Origin: a bacterium
Lineage (GTDB): Bacteria > Blakebacterota > Blakebacteria > Blakebacterales > Blakebacteraceae
Direction: 5' to 3'
NCBI GenBank assembly: GCA_025774615.1
Contig: JALGVQ010000099.1
Coordinates: 1 to 15,344 of the forward strand
DNA: 15,344 nucleotides
Shown here: positions 3,740 to 14,468 of the stretch, one piece after another
Layout: every line of letters starts with the position of its first letter
Position numbering within the stretch: position 1 is the stretch's first letter
Program-made: the position numbers and the translations under genes
The notes under the pieces: model-generated
Database searches by the model: none
The model's input: only the letters and a program-made list of their open reading frames with translations
Told to the model about the DNA's origin: nothing

Positions 3740-3840
3740 CGACGGGGATGGAGTCTCCGGATGTCGGGAGCGTGCATTAGAAATAGAAGGTACTGCTGCA
3801 TGCTGTACCCACAGATTTTGTCAACAGGGAGTCAACTACC

Positions 3841-5247
3841 ATGGGCGGATTCTTCGGAGTCATCGCGGCCGATGATTGCGTGAACGATCTTTTCTTCGGT
3901 ACCGATTACCACTCACACCTCGGCACGATGCGCGGGGGACTCGCGACGAAGAATTCGGGCGGCATCGTCCGTTTCATCCACAACATCACTAACACTCCTT
4001 TCCGATCGAAGTTCGAGGATGACATCTCGAAGATGCATGGTAATCGAGGGATCGGCGTGATCAGCGATCACGACGACCAGCCCCTCATTATCCGCTCACA
4101 CCTCGGCACGTTCGCGATCGTCACCGTCGGGATCATTCAGAATATCGAGGAGATCGTGCAGAAGGCCTTCAGTGAGCGGCGGGCCTACATGTCTGAGATG
4201 AGCGGGGCGACCACGAGCCCCACCGAGGTGACGGCCATGCTCATCAACCAGGAAGCCACATTCACCGACGGGCTCACAGCAGCCCAGGAGGCGATCGATG
4301 GTTCCTGCTCGATCCTGCTTCTGACCGATGAGGGCATCTATGCCTCCCGCGACCGGTACGGCCGGACACCGGTGATCCTCGGGAAGAAGGATGGTGCCTG
4401 GGCAGCGACCATGGAGACGTGCGCCTTCCCTAACCTCGGGTTCAAGTACGAACGCGACCTCGGCCCGGGGGAAATCGTGCTGATGACCGAGGATGGTGTG
4501 CAGCAGATGAAGCCTCCGAACGAGGAAATGAAGATCTGCGCATTCCTCTGGGTCTACTACGGTTATCCGGCCTCACATTACGAGGGGATCAACGTGGAGA
4601 AGGTCCGCTACCGGTGCGGCGCAGCGCTGGCGAGGCGGGAGGATCCATATGTGAATATCGATATGGTCTGCGGTATCCCCGATTCCGGTACCGGTCACGC
4701 GATCGGATATGCCCAGGAATCGAAGATCCCTTATGGCCGCCCGTATGTGAAATACACTCCGACATGGCCACGCAGTTTCATGCCTCAGGATCAGACGATC
4801 CGCGACATGGTGGCGAAGATGAAACTGATCCAGGTGCCCGATCTGATCGAGGGAAAGAGCCTGCTCTTCTGCGAGGACTCGATCGTCCGGGGAACCCAGC
4901 TGCAGGACACCGTACAGCGTCTCTACGAAGGGGGAGCCGAAGAGATCCACATGCGACCGGCATGTCCTCCGCTGGTACATGGCTGCCGCTTCCTCAACTT
5001 CTCCACTTCGAAATCTGAACTCGACCTGGCGGGCAGACGGGCCCTTGCCGAGCTGGAGGGAACGGCCGAGGAGGTTCCGCCTGAATACTCCGATCCCGAT
5101 ACCGAGCAGTACCGGGAGATGGTCGAGAAGGTGCGCGACCGGCTGAAACTGACTACACTCACCTATCAGCGCCTCGACGACCTCGTCGAGGCGATCGGCC
5201 TGCCGAGGGAGAAGGTCTGCACCTACTGCTGGGACAAGAAGGGGTAG
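3841..5247 (+). CDS. PurF-like phosphoribosyltransferase lacking the glutaminase nucleophile
   Basis: 468 residues with the architecture of glutamine PRPP amidotransferase: an N-terminal Ntn glutaminase-like domain (about 1-230) and a C-terminal phosphoribosyltransferase domain. The PRPP loop EDSIVRGT (345-352) is intact. Four cysteines sit where the B. subtilis-type PurF binds its 4Fe-4S cluster: Cys233 (KICAF), Cys382 (VHGC), Cys460 and Cys463 (CTYC). The glutaminase domain is unusual. The protein starts MGGFFGV, where PurF has the nucleophile in CGVFG, so the catalytic Cys is aligned with Gly2. The oxyanion-hole HNG motif appears to be replaced by TVG (95-97). Glutamine hydrolysis is therefore unlikely; ammonia-dependent activity, a partner subunit or a different role are open. 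Similar sequences, from memory, occur in Bacteroidota and are annotated as PurF. GGGAG lies upstream of the ATG. No other purine gene is in the window. Confidence 0.82.
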   Translation: MGGFFGVIAADDCVNDLFFGTDYHSHLGTMRGGLATKNSGGIVRFIHNITNTPFRSKFEDDISKMHGNRGIGVISDHDDQPLIIRSHLGTFAIVTVGIIQNIEEIVQKAFSERRAYMSEMSGATTSPTEVTAMLINQEATFTDGLTAAQEAIDGSCSILLLTDEGIYASRDRYGRTPVILGKKDGAWAATMETCAFPNLGFKYERDLGPGEIVLMTEDGVQQMKPPNEEMKICAFLWVYYGYPASHYEGINVEKVRYRCGAALARREDPYVNIDMVCGIPDSGTGHAIGYAQESKIPYGRPYVKYTPTWPRSFMPQDQTIRDMVAKMKLIQVPDLIEGKSLLFCEDSIVRGTQLQDTVQRLYEGGAEEIHMRPACPPLVHGCRFLNFSTSKSELDLAGRRALAELEGTAEEVPPEYSDPDTEQYREMVEKVRDRLKLTTLTYQRLDDLVEAIGLPREKVCTYCWDKKG

Positions 5248-5305: not shown

Positions 5306-8300
5306 ATGCAGCGGATCGTGACAGGAACCGTGTTCACGATGGCGCTCCTGCTCCTTGCTTCGACTTCCTGCTCTCATCATCAGGGTGATCCATCAGCGGA
5401 CGCCGACATCGGCTCACTCCGCCTCTGGGACCTTGAGCCGGACGCCTACCTCAACGGGTATACCGCTTCACTGACCGGCGATCCCTTCACCTACCACTCC
5501 CCCCACCCTGACGTCGGCACCTCCCTGCTCTCCCGCGCGACCGACCATATCATGGAGATCGCCTGGGAGACCGCGCCCGTTCCGGACGATTTCGACGCAC
5601 CATCGGCCGTATTCGTCTGGATGTGCGGGATACAGCGCGGACCGCCGGCCTCTCACGACTTCCATCTGAGTGTCGACGGGAAACGGGCTTTCACATTCAC
5701 CACTCTTCTCGACGGAACACCCGAGGAGTGGGAGATCGGCAACGGGGAGGGCACCCGCCTCGGGTTTCGGTCGGTCATGACCGATCGATACGACGACCTC
5801 ATGGGCTATATGTACCTTGAAATGCCAGGTCAGCTCCTGACGCCCGGTCTGCCGCTTTCGATCAGAGTGGTCGGAGAACAAGCGGGCAGTAATGACTGGT
5901 ACATGACCTTCGAACACCCGGTCTCACAACAGATATCCTTGATCCCGGAACCGGCGCTCGTACGCGAAGCCGGTGAGATCCACCAGCTCATCCGGGTGGA
6001 TGTCGAACACCTGGGAAGACCATCGGAAGCGGTCGTGACTGTGAACGGCCGCGAGATCGGACGACTTCCGGTGGCATTGGGATACCAGGCGCTCAACACC
6101 TCTCTACCGGCAGTCACGGAGCCTGAAGAAGTCACTGTTGAGGTCGCCATAGCGGGATACCCGACGCAGAGTCGCACCTTCTCACTCTCACCGGTTGAGC
6201 ACCGGGAGATGTACCTCCTTCATCACTCCCACGTCGATATCGGCTATACCCACGTACAGGAAGAGGTCATCCGTATCCAGTCGGAGAACCTGGAGCAGGC
6301 GATCGAGCTGGGCCGACAGACTCGCGATTATCCCGAGGGCGCCCGATTCAAATGGAACACCGAGGTCCTCTGGGCGGTCGATGAATACCTGCGGCGCGCC
6401 ACCCCGGATGAACGGGATCGGCTTTACGAGGCCATCCGTGAGGGGTGGCTGGGGATCGACGCGCTCTATGCCAACGTCCTCACCGGCCTCTGCCGGCCGG
6501 AGGAATTGATGCGGCTCTTCGAGACGGCCCGGAACATCTCCCGCGAGACCGGCGTGACCATCGACGCGGCGATGATCATTGATATTCCCGGCTACACCTG
6601 GGGAATGGTGCCCGCGATGGCGCAGAATGGTATCCGCTATTTCTCTATCGGCACCAACACCGGACACCGGATCGGATCGATCATCGAGGAACTCGGCGAC
6701 CGGCCCTTCTGGTGGGAATCCCCATCAGGTGAGGAACGGGTACTCTGCTGGGTTGCCGGGCGCGGATACTCATGGTTCCACACAGGGCTCGGGGCGAGTT
6801 CGATCCGCAACCGGCTGCAGACCGGACCACTCCTCTCCTACATCCGTGAACTGGAAGCCTCAGGCTGGCCGTACCCGATGGTCTCTTTCCATTACAACAT
6901 CGGATCGGATAACGGCCCGCCCGATCCGGAACTCTCTGACTTCGTGAGGGAGTGGAACGAACGGTTCGTCACCCCCCGACTGATCATCTCGACGACCTCT
7001 GAGATGATGAGCGAATTCGAGCGCCGGCACGGTGACACCCTCCCCATCATGCGGGGCGACCTCACCGGGTACTGGGAGGATGGGGCCGCCTCATCGGCGC
7101 TGGAGACAGCCATGAACCGCTCCTCGGCCGAACGGCTGGTCCAGGCCGATGCGCTGCGGGCGATACTCAGGTCGGAGGATGCTCCCCCGGATGAAGCCAC
7201 CGCAGCGGAATTCTCTGAAGCGTGGCGCAATGTTCTCCTCTATTCCGAACACACCTGGGGCTCATGGGACAGCATCAGCGATCCGGAGAGTGACTTCACC
7301 CGTCAGCAGTGGGAGTACAAACAGTCCTACGCGCTTGAAGCCGATCGACAGTCGCGGATACTCCTCGACCGCGCGCTGACAGGCCACACTTCGTCAACAG
7401 GCACCAGCTCCACACCGGGCACTGCCGGTCCGGTGACGGCGATGGATGTGTTCAACACTAACTCGTGGGATCGGAATGATCTGGTCACGATCCCGAAGGA
7501 TATCGAGCTGGCCGGTGACCGTGTTCATGATCAGTCGGGAGATCTTCTGCCCTCCCAGCGGCTCTCAAACGGGGACCTGGCAGTGATGATCCTCTCCGTA
7601 CCCGCGTTCGGGGCGAGGCGGATCATCTTCGAACCGGGTGAACCGGCGGCACCATCCTGGCCTGTCCCGGGAGGTGTCGAGGTGGCCGGGAACACACTCA
7701 CCGACGGACATATCACGGTCAGCGTCGATGAGATAACCGGGGCGATCTCAAGCCTTCGCGCCGCGACCACCCCCGTCGATCTGGTCGATCGCACCGTCGG
7801 TCCAGGACTGAACGACTACCTCCATGTTGCCGGAAGAGCCCCTTCCTCCCCGGAACGGGGTGGGCCGGTCTCTTTCACCGTCATCGATGAAGGACCGCTC
7901 GTCGGCTCCTTCTCGATCACCTCGGAAGCCCCCGGCCTTCAGCATCTGACCCGGGTAGTGAGGTTGATCGACCGGCTCGGCCGGGTGGAGATCATCGACA
8001 CCCTGGAGAAGGAACGGGTCTACGATCCGGAGGGATTGCATATCGCGTTTCCGTTCAACATCTCCGATCCGGTCATCCGGATCGATGCTGCCTGGGGGCA
8101 CTACCGGCCAGGGCCTGATCAACTTCCCGGATCATGCCGGAACTTCTTCCCTGTTCAGCGATGGGTGGATGTCTCGAACGACGAGTTCGGAGTGACCTGG
8201 GCAAGCCCCGACGCGCCGATGATGGAGATCGGAGAGATCACCGCCGACCCTGTCGCCGTGGGCTGGCTGAAGGAAACACAACCATCAGCGACTCTCCTCT

Positions 8301-8728
8301 CCTATGTGATGAACAACTACTGGGAGACCAATTTCCGGGCCTGGCAGGAAGGACCGGTGACCTTCCGGTACGCGATCCGGCCCCATGACGGTTTCGATGC
8401 CGGCGCGGCCCTCCGTTTCGGGATCGAAGCGAACCAGCCCCTGCTCGCGGCCCCGGTCGATCCCGACACGCCCCGGGTCGAACCGTTGCTCACGATCAAC
8501 TCCATGGCAGTCGTCGCCACCTCTCTCAGACTCGCGCCCGATGGCGAGGGACTCCTGCTGCGGCTCTTCAACACCGGGGAGAGCGCTGAGCTCGCCTCGC
8601 TCGTACTCGAGACCGACAGCCTGGCTGATGTCTACCTGAGTGACGTGTCGGGGAAACGGGGTCAGATGCTGACCGAACAGCCCCTGATCCCACCGTCGGG
8701 GATACGTACCTTCTATATCTCTTTCTGA
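5306..8728 (+). CDS. Glycoside hydrolase family 38 (alpha-mannosidase type) lipoprotein
   Basis: A 1140-residue exported protein. The signal peptide ends at STSC (Cys22), a relaxed lipobox. Residues 30-300 form a poorly recognised, beta-rich-looking N-terminal region. The catalytic part begins at HHSHVDIGYTH (306-316), where His309 and Asp311 match the metal ligands of GH38. Asp426 in IIDIPGYTW matches the nucleophile, and His649 in SEHTWGSWDS matches the third-ligand histidine. A long beta-rich C-terminal region (about 700-1140) resembles GH38 C-terminal domains in layout. GH38 enzymes are metal-dependent retaining alpha-mannosidases, so cleavage of mannosides at the cell surface is the likely role; exact linkage cannot be read. 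AAAGGAG lies about 9 bases before the ATG. The gene follows the PurF-like gene by 58 bases, without an obvious terminator, and its 3' end overlaps the convergent membrane-protein gene by 16 bases. Confidence 0.88.
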   Translation: MQRIVTGTVFTMALLLLASTSCSHHQGDPSADADIGSLRLWDLEPDAYLNGYTASLTGDPFTYHSPHPDVGTSLLSRATDHIMEIAWETAPVPDDFDAPSAVFVWMCGIQRGPPASHDFHLSVDGKRAFTFTTLLDGTPEEWEIGNGEGTRLGFRSVMTDRYDDLMGYMYLEMPGQLLTPGLPLSIRVVGEQAGSNDWYMTFEHPVSQQISLIPEPALVREAGEIHQLIRVDVEHLGRPSEAVVTVNGREIGRLPVALGYQALNTSLPAVTEPEEVTVEVAIAGYPTQSRTFSLSPVEHREMYLLHHSHVDIGYTHVQEEVIRIQSENLEQAIELGRQTRDYPEGARFKWNTEVLWAVDEYLRRATPDERDRLYEAIREGWLGIDALYANVLTGLCRPEELMRLFETARNISRETGVTIDAAMIIDIPGYTWGMVPAMAQNGIRYFSIGTNTGHRIGSIIEELGDRPFWWESPSGEERVLCWVAGRGYSWFHTGLGASSIRNRLQTGPLLSYIRELEASGWPYPMVSFHYNIGSDNGPPDPELSDFVREWNERFVTPRLIISTTSEMMSEFERRHGDTLPIMRGDLTGYWEDGAASSALETAMNRSSAERLVQADALRAILRSEDAPPDEATAAEFSEAWRNVLLYSEHTWGSWDSISDPESDFTRQQWEYKQSYALEADRQSRILLDRALTGHTSSTGTSSTPGTAGPVTAMDVFNTNSWDRNDLVTIPKDIELAGDRVHDQSGDLLPSQRLSNGDLAVMILSVPAFGARRIIFEPGEPAAPSWPVPGGVEVAGNTLTDGHITVSVDEITGAISSLRAATTPVDLVDRTVGPGLNDYLHVAGRAPSSPERGGPVSFTVIDEGPLVGSFSITSEAPGLQHLTRVVRLIDRLGRVEIIDTLEKERVYDPEGLHIAFPFNISDPVIRIDAAWGHYRPGPDQLPGSCRNFFPVQRWVDVSNDEFGVTWASPDAPMMEIGEITADPVAVGWLKETQPSATLLSYVMNNYWETNFRAWQEGPVTFRYAIRPHDGFDAGAALRFGIEANQPLLAAPVDPDTPRVEPLLTINSMAVVATSLRLAPDGEGLLLRLFNTGESAELASLVLETDSLADVYLSDVSGKRGQMLTEQPLIPPSGIRTFYISF

Positions 8729-10123: not shown

Positions 10124-10313
10124 GACCGGCAAGGGGATCGATCAACCCATCACATCTGTAGTGTGCCGCCCTCATGCGACAGGTTGAAGTATGGTAATGC
10201 CGCTCATCCTGACGGCACACATTTTCAGTATGGCAGTCACCACTGCCTCCCTGTATAGATTCTTCAAGGTGGGTACGTTCACACGCCTGATCGATCATCG
10301 ACCATGGAGCGTC

Positions 10314-11036
10314 ATGCCAGCGATCACACAGGAATGCGCGAGTCGAGAGATAGAGCCGGCACGATCGTCGGTGCTCCACCTGCTGGGTATCCCCACCGGT
10401 GCCAACCAGCCTTCCAAGGTCACCGAGATGTTCGACCGGGCATTCGATCTCTTCCATCGAACGGCTGCGCCCAGGGGCATCTCCGAAGACATCACCCGGG
10501 AGGAATTCACGGTTATCTACGCCGGTGATGGGAAGAACGATCCCGAGACCCCGCTTGAGACCATCTATCCGCAGGCTGACAACCTGGCTCTTTTTACCGT
10601 CACACTCGGCAGTGAAGTAAGTGAGAGTATCACCCGACTCTTCGAAGAAAACGACTTTGCGTTCGCGACCATCTTCGACGCGGTAGCCTCAGAAGGCGCC
10701 GACCGGCTGGCCGACATGGTCATGCGGGGTCATCTGGAGATGACCGACGGGATCAATAGTGAGGCAGCCGGAACAGCGACAGTGCGGTACAGTCCGGGCT
10801 ACTGCGGTTGGTATGTCAGCGGACAGCGCGCCCTCTTTGCAAGGCTCCAACCGGAACGAATCGGGGTCGAACTCCTTGAGAGCTGCCTCATGACGCCCTC
10901 AAAGTCGATCTCGGGTGTGATCGTGACGGGACCGACGGAGATCCACCGGTTCGTACCCGATTTCATGTTCTGCGCCGACTGCGTGACAAAGAGCTGTCGT
11001 GAACGGATCGCCGAGCTCGATACAACGGGTTTCTGA
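10314..11036 (+). CDS. Stand-alone B12-dependent methionine synthase activation-domain protein
   Basis: 240 residues matching the C-terminal reactivation module of MetH (PF02965). The core motif RYSPGYCGW (158-166) followed by SGQ and LF is the AdoMet-binding signature of this domain; the following GVELLESCLMTPSKSISGV (184-202) also fits. The module binds AdoMet to remethylate oxidised cobalamin during reductive reactivation. Here it is not fused to the other MetH modules. A C-terminal cluster Cys220-x2-Cys223-x4-Cys228 followed by Arg is also seen, from memory, in other stand-alone members and could bind a metal. The start at 10314 is preferred because GGAG (10306-10309) precedes it; the frame is open upstream to ATG 10191, but those 41 residues look unlike the family. 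The homocysteine methyltransferase gene follows after 41 bases, so the two probably form one operon. Thermotoga maritima provides a known precedent for a separate reactivation protein. Confidence 0.85.
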   Translation: MPAITQECASREIEPARSSVLHLLGIPTGANQPSKVTEMFDRAFDLFHRTAAPRGISEDITREEFTVIYAGDGKNDPETPLETIYPQADNLALFTVTLGSEVSESITRLFEENDFAFATIFDAVASEGADRLADMVMRGHLEMTDGINSEAAGTATVRYSPGYCGWYVSGQRALFARLQPERIGVELLESCLMTPSKSISGVIVTGPTEIHRFVPDFMFCADCVTKSCRERIAELDTTGF

Positions 11037-11077
11037 GAAGGACCGACCAGGGTAGAACATGGAGAAGGAGAGACTGC

Positions 11078-11959
11078 ATGGATCCATTCATGGAGCGGAT
11101 ATCAGCCGGTGAGACCCTCATCTCCGACGGCGCCCTCGGCACGATGCTGCAGCGGATGGGCAGCTACACGACCTGTCCCGAGGAAGTGAACCTCTCCCAT
11201 CCCGAAATCCTGGAGGAGGTTGCCCGCCTCTACGTGGAAGCCGGTTCCGATATCGTCCACACCAACACCTTTGGTGCTTCTCCGCTTAAACTCGCGACAG
11301 CGGATATGCTCGAATATATCGTGGAGATCAATCAGGCCGCGGTCGGGGCGGTCCGGAGGGCAGCGGGCCCCGACACGCTTGTTTCAGGGTCGATCGGCCC
11401 TACCGGCAAGCTCATGCTGATGAATGAGACCACGCCGCAGGAGATCGAGATCGGTTACGTGCACCAGGTCGGCATCCTGGTGGAGGCTGGAGTCGACCTC
11501 ATCTGTATTGAGACGATGACCGATCTCATCGAGGCGCTGCTCGCGGTTCGGGCCGTGAGGGAAGTGACCACCGATATCCCTCTTATGGCGCAGATGACCT
11601 TCGATCCTGTACCGCAGGGGTTCCGGACCATCATGGGAGTTTCGATTGAAGATGCGGTACCACGCATGCTCGATGAGGGCGTCGACGTGGTGGGATCGAA
11701 CTGCGGACATGGGCTCGACACGATGATCGAGGTCGCGCGCGCGTTCCGGGAGCTCTCTGATGCTCCTCTCATCATTCAGTCGAACGCCGGCCTGCCCGAA
11801 CTCATCGATGGGGATGTCGTCTATTCCGAATCACCAGAGATGTTCGCCAGTCGGGTACCCGACCTCATCGATGTGGGTGTCTCGGTGATCGGCGGCTGTT
11901 GCGGAACCACCCCCGACCACATCCGCGCTATGCGTGAAGCCGTCGACTCGCGCGGTTGA
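11078..11959 (+). CDS. Homocysteine S-methyltransferase module (MetH N-terminal type)
   Basis: 293 residues of the zinc-dependent homocysteine S-methyltransferase family (PF02574). The opening SDGALGTMLQ (16-25), the HTNTFGAS segment (61-68) and the zinc ligands Cys209 (GSNCGHG) and Cys274-Cys275 (GGCCGT) are all in place. The residue spacing closely follows the N-terminal module of Thermotoga MetH. The module transfers a methyl group to homocysteine to make methionine. It lacks the folate-binding and cobalamin-binding modules of a full MetH, so it would need a separate methyl donor protein, or might use a small methyl donor such as S-methylmethionine or betaine. The upstream reactivation-domain gene argues for cobalamin. 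A strong AAGGAG precedes the ATG. It lies 41 bases behind the reactivation gene and about 48 bases before the aspartase/fumarase gene. Confidence 0.87.
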   Translation: MDPFMERISAGETLISDGALGTMLQRMGSYTTCPEEVNLSHPEILEEVARLYVEAGSDIVHTNTFGASPLKLATADMLEYIVEINQAAVGAVRRAAGPDTLVSGSIGPTGKLMLMNETTPQEIEIGYVHQVGILVEAGVDLICIETMTDLIEALLAVRAVREVTTDIPLMAQMTFDPVPQGFRTIMGVSIEDAVPRMLDEGVDVVGSNCGHGLDTMIEVARAFRELSDAPLIIQSNAGLPELIDGDVVYSESPEMFASRVPDLIDVGVSVIGGCCGTTPDHIRAMREAVDSRG

Positions 11960-13423: not shown

Positions 13424-13855
13424 TTAGCGGCCCTGGTCAGGAGACTTCAATATATCCTCTGGTAGACGCTTCCGAATGCTCTCTCGGAAGCGGTGAGCCA
13501 TTTCAACCGCTTCCTCTGCTTCGGTCAGAGATATGGGCTCATAGTTGCCCGGGTAGCGTGTCACCGTTGCATATTCAGTCAGTCTGTCCTGCTCATCAGC
13601 GCTGAGGTCTGGACGACTCACAGGTGGGAGGAGGGACACGAGTATATCAATGCTGTGTGTTTGCGGATACTCGGTACCCCGCAGCGTGAGCAGGGCCTTG
13701 GAGTACTTCTCCACGCACTGTTGGACGTGGAAACAAACCGTGTCCGTAGGACAATCCTCCGGCATTGTGAGAGTGTAGGAGGCAGTCCGCAGGTCATTCT
13801 CGGCCTTATCGACCCATTCTCGGACAACCCCGAGCACATTCTCATCCGGCGACAT
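13424..13855 (-). CDS. HEPN-domain protein, toxin partner of an MNT/HEPN module
   Basis: 143 residues, all-helical in appearance. HEPN family (PF05168) features are an early helix W-x2-K-A-E-N-D-L-x2-A (14-25), CFHVQQCVEKYSKALL (41-56), PQTHSIDIL (64-72) and TRYPGNY (99-105), followed by a helix with EAEEAVEMA. HEPN proteins in such pairs are typically RNase-like toxins; the conserved Arg100 lies in RYP, but no clear R-x4-6-H motif is visible, and Tyr105 lies at the +5 position. The start at 13855 is preferred: GGGAAGG lies a few bases upstream on the minus strand, and the ATG overlaps the end of the MNT gene by 14 bases, which suggests translational coupling. A longer open frame from 13900 would overlap MNT further and lacks family-like sequence. 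The stop codon directly abuts the aspartase stop. Confidence 0.85.
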   Translation of the reverse strand: MSPDENVLGVVREWVDKAENDLRTASYTLTMPEDCPTDTVCFHVQQCVEKYSKALLTLRGTEYPQTHSIDILVSLLPPVSRPDLSADEQDRLTEYATVTRYPGNYEPISLTEAEEAVEMAHRFRESIRKRLPEDILKSPDQGR

Positions 13856-14468
13856 ACTGGACCTTCCCTTCGCGAACCGCCTGTCGTTCGATCGTCCCAA
13901 CGATCATCTGCCGCCAGCTGAACTCTTCAGGCGTCGATACGATAATGTCTTTGGAAATCCGGATGTCATGGAGAGTATTGCGGACCTGTAACTGAGCCTC
14001 TCTCTTTGATCCTTCTACGTCCATGATGACGAGCAGGTCCACGTCACTATCGGGCGTTGCTTCGCCCCGCGCGTGCGAGCCGAACAGGATTATTCTCTCC
14101 GGGTGAAAGCGCTCGATGATCCGCTCCACCATCATCCGGACTTCCCTCCGCACTCCCTGAGCTTCAGGCAGCACTATCGGTTCCTCCACCCGGTTCAGGT
14201 CACCGTGATTTGCGGCCCTGACAGGCAGGTCGTTCTTTACTGAGGTCTCATCCCTGGTATTCAGATGCTCTTTCAGTTGCTGCAGGCGTCTGAGCAGAAA
14301 AGGCTGTGGTGTCCTTTTCCCGTTCTCCCAATGATTCACCGTGCTGTAGGTGACACCCACTTTCTGAGCGAACTGTTCTTGCGTGAGATCGAGTCGATCT
14401 CGGAGTTTTCGCACCAGGTTCGCACTGTTCTCTTTCTTCATGGTCCCATCCAGGGTCATCTCATTCAT
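13842..14468 (-). CDS. XRE-type HTH fused to minimal nucleotidyltransferase (MNT), antitoxin and regulator
   Basis: 208 residues with two domains. Residues 18-65 are an XRE/Cro-type helix-turn-helix (LTQEQFAQKVGVTYSTVNHW). After a charged linker (66-108) comes a minimal nucleotidyltransferase with GSHARGEATPDSDVDLLV (130-147). This gives the GS-x10-DxD motif (Gly130, Ser131, Asp142, Asp144), and Asp174 (KDIIVS) is a good third acidic residue. In type VII HEPN/MNT modules the MNT protein neutralises the HEPN toxin by nucleotidylating it. The HTH probably makes this copy its own transcriptional repressor, acting at the dyad at 14490-14507. Start choice is uncertain: ATG 14468, 14459 or 14441 are in frame; 14441 (MKKENSANL) has a weak GGATGGG upstream, and 14468 has almost no Shine-Dalgarno. 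The HEPN gene follows with a 14-base overlap. Confidence 0.87.
   Translation of the reverse strand: MNEMTLDGTMKKENSANLVRKLRDRLDLTQEQFAQKVGVTYSTVNHWENGKRTPQPFLLRRLQQLKEHLNTRDETSVKNDLPVRAANHGDLNRVEEPIVLPEAQGVRREVRMMVERIIERFHPERIILFGSHARGEATPDSDVDLLVIMDVEGSKREAQLQVRNTLHDIRISKDIIVSTPEEFSWRQMIVGTIERQAVREGKVQYVAG

Follow-up and report, generated by a model that had tools for sequence, protein, structure and literature searches.

A widespread family of PurF paralogues with a predicted dead glutaminase domain, probably ammonia-dependent 5-phosphoribosylamine synthases

Textbooks present PurF as an enzyme that uses glutamine and at which purine synthesis is controlled. The gene analyzed here probably encodes an ammonia-dependent 5-phosphoribosylamine synthase, i.e., a PurF that gave up glutamine. 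It lies in a window of 15,344 nt (the whole stretch of DNA that was analyzed). A sequence-only reading of the gene had left two options, ammonia-dependent formation of phosphoribosylamine or another PRPP-dependent reaction. The first is favored because relatives of the gene are placed in purine operons and replace PurF in genomes that keep purD. We infer ammonia as the donor because the glutamine site is totally lost.

The Gene and Its Predicted Fold

The frame upstream of the ATG at 3841 stays open for only about 17 codons, none of which codes for cysteine. This excludes an upstream start supplying an N-terminal Cys, which the sequence-only reading had named as evidence that would count against it. 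An M-(G/S)-G start is found in 73 nonredundant relatives, either at the corresponding position or within an open frame that extends further upstream. The protein (features in Table 1) scores 176.6 bits against the NCBIfam profile of purF, TIGR01134, and does not reach its curated cut-off of 350; two paralogues from purine operons score 157 and 171 bits. The closest solved structure by sequence is the Fe-S PurF of Bacillus subtilis (EC 2.4.2.14; 1ao0, 1gph).

An AlphaFold2 model built with the family alignment (pLDDT 82, pTM 0.81) has the Ntn and phosphoribosyltransferase folds over its full length, and matches 1ao0 throughout (Z 36.3, 425 aligned residues at 2.9 Å, 29% identity; 2.8–2.9 Å for PurF). 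Its glutaminase domain (residues 2–229) matches that of GlmS with a Z of about 25. The model was used for the fold and the domain ends alone; because its confidence is low in the PRPP loop and the flexible loop (pLDDT under 50), no claim about a channel is drawn from it.

Table 1. Features of the PurF paralogue gene (positions in the window)
Feature	Position	Strand	Basis
Ribosome binding site GGGAG	3827..3831	+	9 nt 5′ of ATG at 3841
PurF paralogue gene (glutaminase-dead PurF, MGG family)	3841..5247	+	ORF, 468 aa, profile and fold match
Predicted dead glutaminase (Ntn) domain, residues 2–229	3844..4527	+	aligns with GlmS glutaminase domain
Gly2 codon at Cys1-nucleophile position	3844..3846	+	alignment and structure match
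Motif D22-Y-H-S-H26	3904..3918	+	near-invariant in 71 paralogues; not in ordinary PurF except H26
I74-S75-D76, conserved where Arg73-Tyr74 loop is deleted	4060..4068	+	alignment
Val96-Gly97 replacing Asn101-Gly102 (oxyanion Asn gone, Gly retained)	4126..4131	+	alignment
Pro127 replacing Asp127 (glutamine-site residue)	4219..4221	+	alignment
Phosphoribosyltransferase domain, residues 232–466	4534..5238	+	sequence and structure match
Cys233, predicted Fe-S ligand	4537..4539	+	alignment
Flexible PRPP-closing loop, residues 304–328 (KYTPTWxRSFMP)	4750..4824	+	conserved gate Arg311, Lys328; one extra residue
PRPP loop E345-D-S-I-V-R-G-T352	4873..4896	+	alignment
Cys382, predicted Fe-S ligand	4984..4986	+	alignment
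Cys460 and Cys463, predicted Fe-S ligands	5218..5229	+	alignment

Loss of the Glutamine Site

The residues of the glutamine site (Cys1, Arg73, Tyr74, Asn101, and Asp127 in the numbering of Escherichia coli PurF) were followed in an alignment of 71 paralogues and 60 ordinary PurFs. The column of Cys1 holds cysteine in 58/60 ordinary PurFs, and in the paralogues only glycine (66) or serine (5). As the structure match pairs residue 2 of the model with residue 1 of mature PurF, Gly2 occupies the place of Cys1, just as had been read from the start MGGFFGV. Arg73-Tyr74 is deleted in all 71 paralogues, Asn101 gives way to V, I, T, A, or L, and Asp127 mostly to P, A, S, Q, or T, so that Arg73, Asn101, and Asp127 are lost or replaced in every one of them. 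The HNG oxyanion motif had also been read as apparently lost; this holds for its Asn but not for its Gly, since Gly97 is retained in 65/71 paralogues.

One might suppose that a different residue took over as nucleophile and preserved glutaminase activity, for example Cys13, present in 65/71 paralogues, or Ser2, present in 5. With Arg73, Asn101, and Asp127 gone throughout the family, this is extremely improbable. Cys13 was itself rejected as a candidate: it is Ala in 6 paralogues, and five proteins (three of them in purine operons) are free of Cys across residues 1–30.

The former glutaminase domain has been remade. There are 38 positions that are near-invariant among paralogues and rare in ordinary PurF, including D22-Y-H-S-x-L-x-T29 and I74-S-D76, and because many of them lie within this domain it is under selection and not decaying. 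Judged from the alignment, the domain is dead as a glutaminase, yet has an invariant motif of its own, DYHSHLG.

Conservation of the PRPP Site and of the Fe-S Cysteines

The four Cys ligand positions and the gate Arg are retained in 71/71 paralogues, and the residues of the D-S-(I-V)-R-G-T loop in at least 70/71. Thus EDSIVRGT and Cys233, Cys382, Cys460, and Cys463, singled out as kept in the window protein, are features of the family, and its members may be predicted to carry an Fe-S cluster. Lys328, Tyr239, and His26 are also retained. In simulations of E. coli PurF, the Arg gate bonds with Tyr259, Phe260, and His26 (PMC12017579). The counterparts of these gate-contact residues are conserved in paralogues, with Tyr instead of Phe in most.

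The paralogue resembles B. subtilis PurF in its full-length fold, PRPP loop, flexible loop, gate Arg, four Fe-S cysteines, and, in some genomes, place in the purine operon. It differs in lacking Cys1, Arg73, Tyr74, Asn101, and Asp127, in having DYHSHLG, in its profile score (177 bits, against a TIGR01134 cut-off of 350), and in belonging to a separate clade.

Distribution and Phylogeny

A scan of 84,980 genomes gave 18 relatives with 56–90% identity, in Lachnospiraceae, Desulfoscipio, Syntrophomonas, Lentisphaerae, Aminicenantes, Lokiarchaeota, and Heimdallarchaeota. Records labeled as plasmids contain further paralogues, in Peptoclostridium acidaminophilum (57%) and in Bacteroides finegoldii, Phocaeicola massiliensis, and Parabacteroides distasonis (51–53%), two of which are annotated as amidophosphoribosyltransferase. 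Among the three Bacteroidales records (L184, NZ_OY725754.1; L185, NZ_OY725932.1; L186, OY725992.1), two with the plasmid label hold housekeeping genes near the paralogue (rplU and rpmA in L184, eno in L185), and look like circularized pieces of chromosome.

In a tree of 127 rows, rooted only at the midpoint, 70 paralogues group together (SH-aLRT 100), as do 56 ordinary PurFs (99); the MGG proteins thus have a clade of their own, a point that the sequence-only reading had proposed to check with a PurF tree. The losses described above are common to the 71 aligned relatives (Clostridia, Asgard archaea, Lentisphaerae, and others), 70 of which fall in this clade. By alignment and phylogeny, the window gene is a member of a widespread family and not a lone degenerate gene. 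The branch between the two groups bears a single protein (L011, from genome G057), the nearest outlier, with 37% identity to the window protein. It has an MSG start and lacks Cys1 and the Arg73-Tyr74 loop, as paralogues do, but unlike them it keeps HRGQ, misses one Fe-S cysteine, and has no DYHSH motif. A set of Asgard PurFs (L120–L142, archaeal relatives of G101) scores about 330 bits, just below the TIGR01134 cut-off, and makes up a deep branch of its own.

Gene Neighborhoods

The window copy stands outside purine genes, as first noticed and as profile annotation of its neighbors confirms. A provisional view of the family as unlinked to purines, drawn from the first 23 paralogues, which had no common neighbors, was reversed by wider sampling of Clostridia. 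In that group pur genes adjoin the paralogue in 11 of the 43 loci inspected, a nonrandom set in which several loci were chosen for a nearby purD; most others stand alone, like the window copy. By gene order, then, the family, though not the window copy, is found in purine operons. The clearest case is G421, with purE-purC-paralogue-purM-purN-purB-purD-purL (purE, C, M, N, B, and D above NCBIfam cut-offs) and no ordinary PurF detected in a genome of ~1.7 Mb, 1.67 Mb of it in one contig. The order is purE-purC-paralogue-purM-purN-purD in G391 and G451, purE-purC-paralogue-purF-purM in G395 and G511, purE-purC-purF-paralogue-purM in G341, and purF-purB-paralogue-purA in G169. In G227 it is purC-purB-paralogue-purA, where the contig begins 376 nt before purC, so that a neighboring purF may have been cut off. 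The paralogue adjoins purE in G120 and G136, and in G420 a purC-like gene (129.5 bits, below the purC cut-off). The genes of paralogue and ordinary PurF lie side by side in L166, L174, and L175, and are also adjacent in a Lokiarchaeon.

Such operons, together with the intact PRPP site, would also suit an enzyme that makes phosphoribosylamine with ammonia supplied by a separate, docking glutaminase, glutamine remaining the true donor. Split amidotransferases are common (e.g., PurL/PurQ), and this is the main rival to direct use of ammonia. It is nonetheless unlikely, as none of the neighborhoods inspected has a glutaminase gene linked to the paralogue, whose own Ntn domain would block the usual docking place.

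Other neighbors recur. In the three Bacteroidales records pepT and gcvT are downstream of the paralogue, and pepT is downstream in P. acidaminophilum. Since ammonia is set free when peptides are degraded and glycine is cleaved, this linkage fits ammonia as donor but does not prove it. The occurrence of pepT downstream in both Bacteroidales and Peptoclostridium (L183–L186) is a linkage to ammonia-releasing pathways across phyla.

Replacement of Ordinary PurF

The genome of the window (3.3 Mb, 82% complete) also encodes the canonical PurF that the sequence-only reading had suggested searching for (G000:C312, 539 bits), with its Cys correctly placed after a short leader. Both proteins co-occur in 16/17 genomes behind the fetched relatives. 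Among 118 Lachnospirales genomes (at least 95% complete), 30 have the paralogue, 6 of them without a detected ordinary PurF. Among 255 Clostridia genomes (at least 98% complete), it is present in 61 (matches above 400 bits), 53 with both proteins and 8 in which no ordinary PurF is found at E ≤ 1e-30. The 6 and the 8 share one genome, which leaves 13 with the paralogue only. The absence of ordinary PurF rests on drafts with estimated completeness of at least 95–98%, and in the 7 paralogue-only genomes from the Clostridia sample alone it was sought with the paralogue profile and not with TIGR01134. All 13 have purD above cut-off, and the 6 tested for purM have it. G098, which has the paralogue only and purM but no purD above cut-off, was set aside as an incomplete draft.

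Conversely, purD is missing from 30 of the 31 sampled genomes that have neither PurF. The exception, G128, was rejected as a counterexample, because a fragment of ordinary purF is found at a contig end. The observed loss of ordinary PurF is thus almost confined to carriers of the paralogue: in 6/30 carriers against 1/77 otherwise in Lachnospirales (p 0.002), and in 8/61 against 0/162 in Clostridia. The latter gives p 2e-5 if 12 genomes with neither protein and unscreened for purD are counted as purine auxotrophs, as were 19/19 of those screened there; if all 12 are counted as having purD, p is 0.18 and significance is gone. Because genomes are related, these p-values are only guides. The paralogue-only state requires about eight changes on the tree of paralogues, and it is therefore not one event. 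The paralogue substitutes for ordinary PurF in some genomes.

The frequent presence of both proteins, sometimes encoded side by side, would also be expected if the paralogue were a regulatory or structural partner of ordinary PurF, binding nucleotide or PRPP in a mixed oligomer. Such a role is very unlikely: the 13 genomes with purD and the paralogue have no detected ordinary PurF to partner with, and the residues of the PRPP loop and of the gate are conserved. A different PRPP-dependent reaction, in which DYHSHLG recognizes an acceptor that is not ammonia, would account for the 38 family-specific positions, many of which map to the dead domain, and for the frequent location outside purine operons. 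One would not expect such an enzyme to occupy the slot of purF, nor to replace purF where the next enzyme, PurD, needs phosphoribosylamine, and it seems quite unlikely.

Proposed Reaction and Related Proteins

In an ammonia-dependent synthase, the phosphoribosyltransferase domain would bind PRPP-Mg and the flexible loop would close; free ammonia would enter through the glutaminase pocket, now empty, or by some other channel and attack C1, giving phosphoribosylamine for PurD. The former glutaminase domain would persist as a scaffold that has acquired new conserved residues. Ambient ammonia is used by PRPP amidotransferase (PMC12017579), and Cys1 mutants of E. coli PurF lose the use of glutamine and keep that of ammonia (Mei and Zalkin 1989, as cited in PMC3261824). 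Because most carriers also keep a glutamine-using PurF, the two proteins probably split the work; by analogy with AsnA/AsnB, one may guess that they do so according to nitrogen supply.

The family probably sits in the first purine step of anaerobes, and sometimes runs it alone, taking ammonia directly. A more ambitious proposal is that the whole wide family is obligately ammonia-dependent, its dead domain remade for ammonia entry or nitrogen sensing, and that it repeatedly displaced glutamine-dependent PurF from the committed step of the purine pathway in anaerobes; this is tentative, a little easier to doubt than to accept. If ammonia is the donor, many gut and sediment anaerobes can begin purine synthesis from it, and paralogues listed as amidophosphoribosyltransferase bear the name of a reaction beyond them.

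Cys-less PurFs are known from crenarchaea; Brown et al. 2011 (PMC3261824), who named them PurF′, proposed that they act as ammonia-dependent PRPP aminotransferases. Compared by description, PurF′ and the MGG family both lack the N-terminal Cys, coexist with ordinary PurF, and in some genomes lie close to purine genes. Ala or Val takes the place of this Cys in many PurF′, Gly or Ser in the MGG family. Unlike PurF′, the MGG family belongs to bacteria and Asgard archaea, and a genome may have no PurF besides it. The literature searched, which excluded most subscription journals, contained neither a test of the 2011 proposal nor a paper on the bacterial MGG family.

Other Genes in the Window

Downstream of the paralogue, a gene at 5306–8728 (+) codes for a probable lipoprotein of 1140 aa, in which only a glycoside hydrolase family 38 N-terminal domain is recognized. 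Methionine synthase is apparently split at 10191–11959 (+) into a protein that has the B12 activation domain (Met_synt_B12), followed by a separate protein with the homocysteine S-methyltransferase domain. At 13424–14468 (−), a HEPN protein overlaps a fusion of HTH and nucleotidyltransferase domains, likely a toxin-antitoxin pair of the HEPN-MNT type with a built-in repressor.
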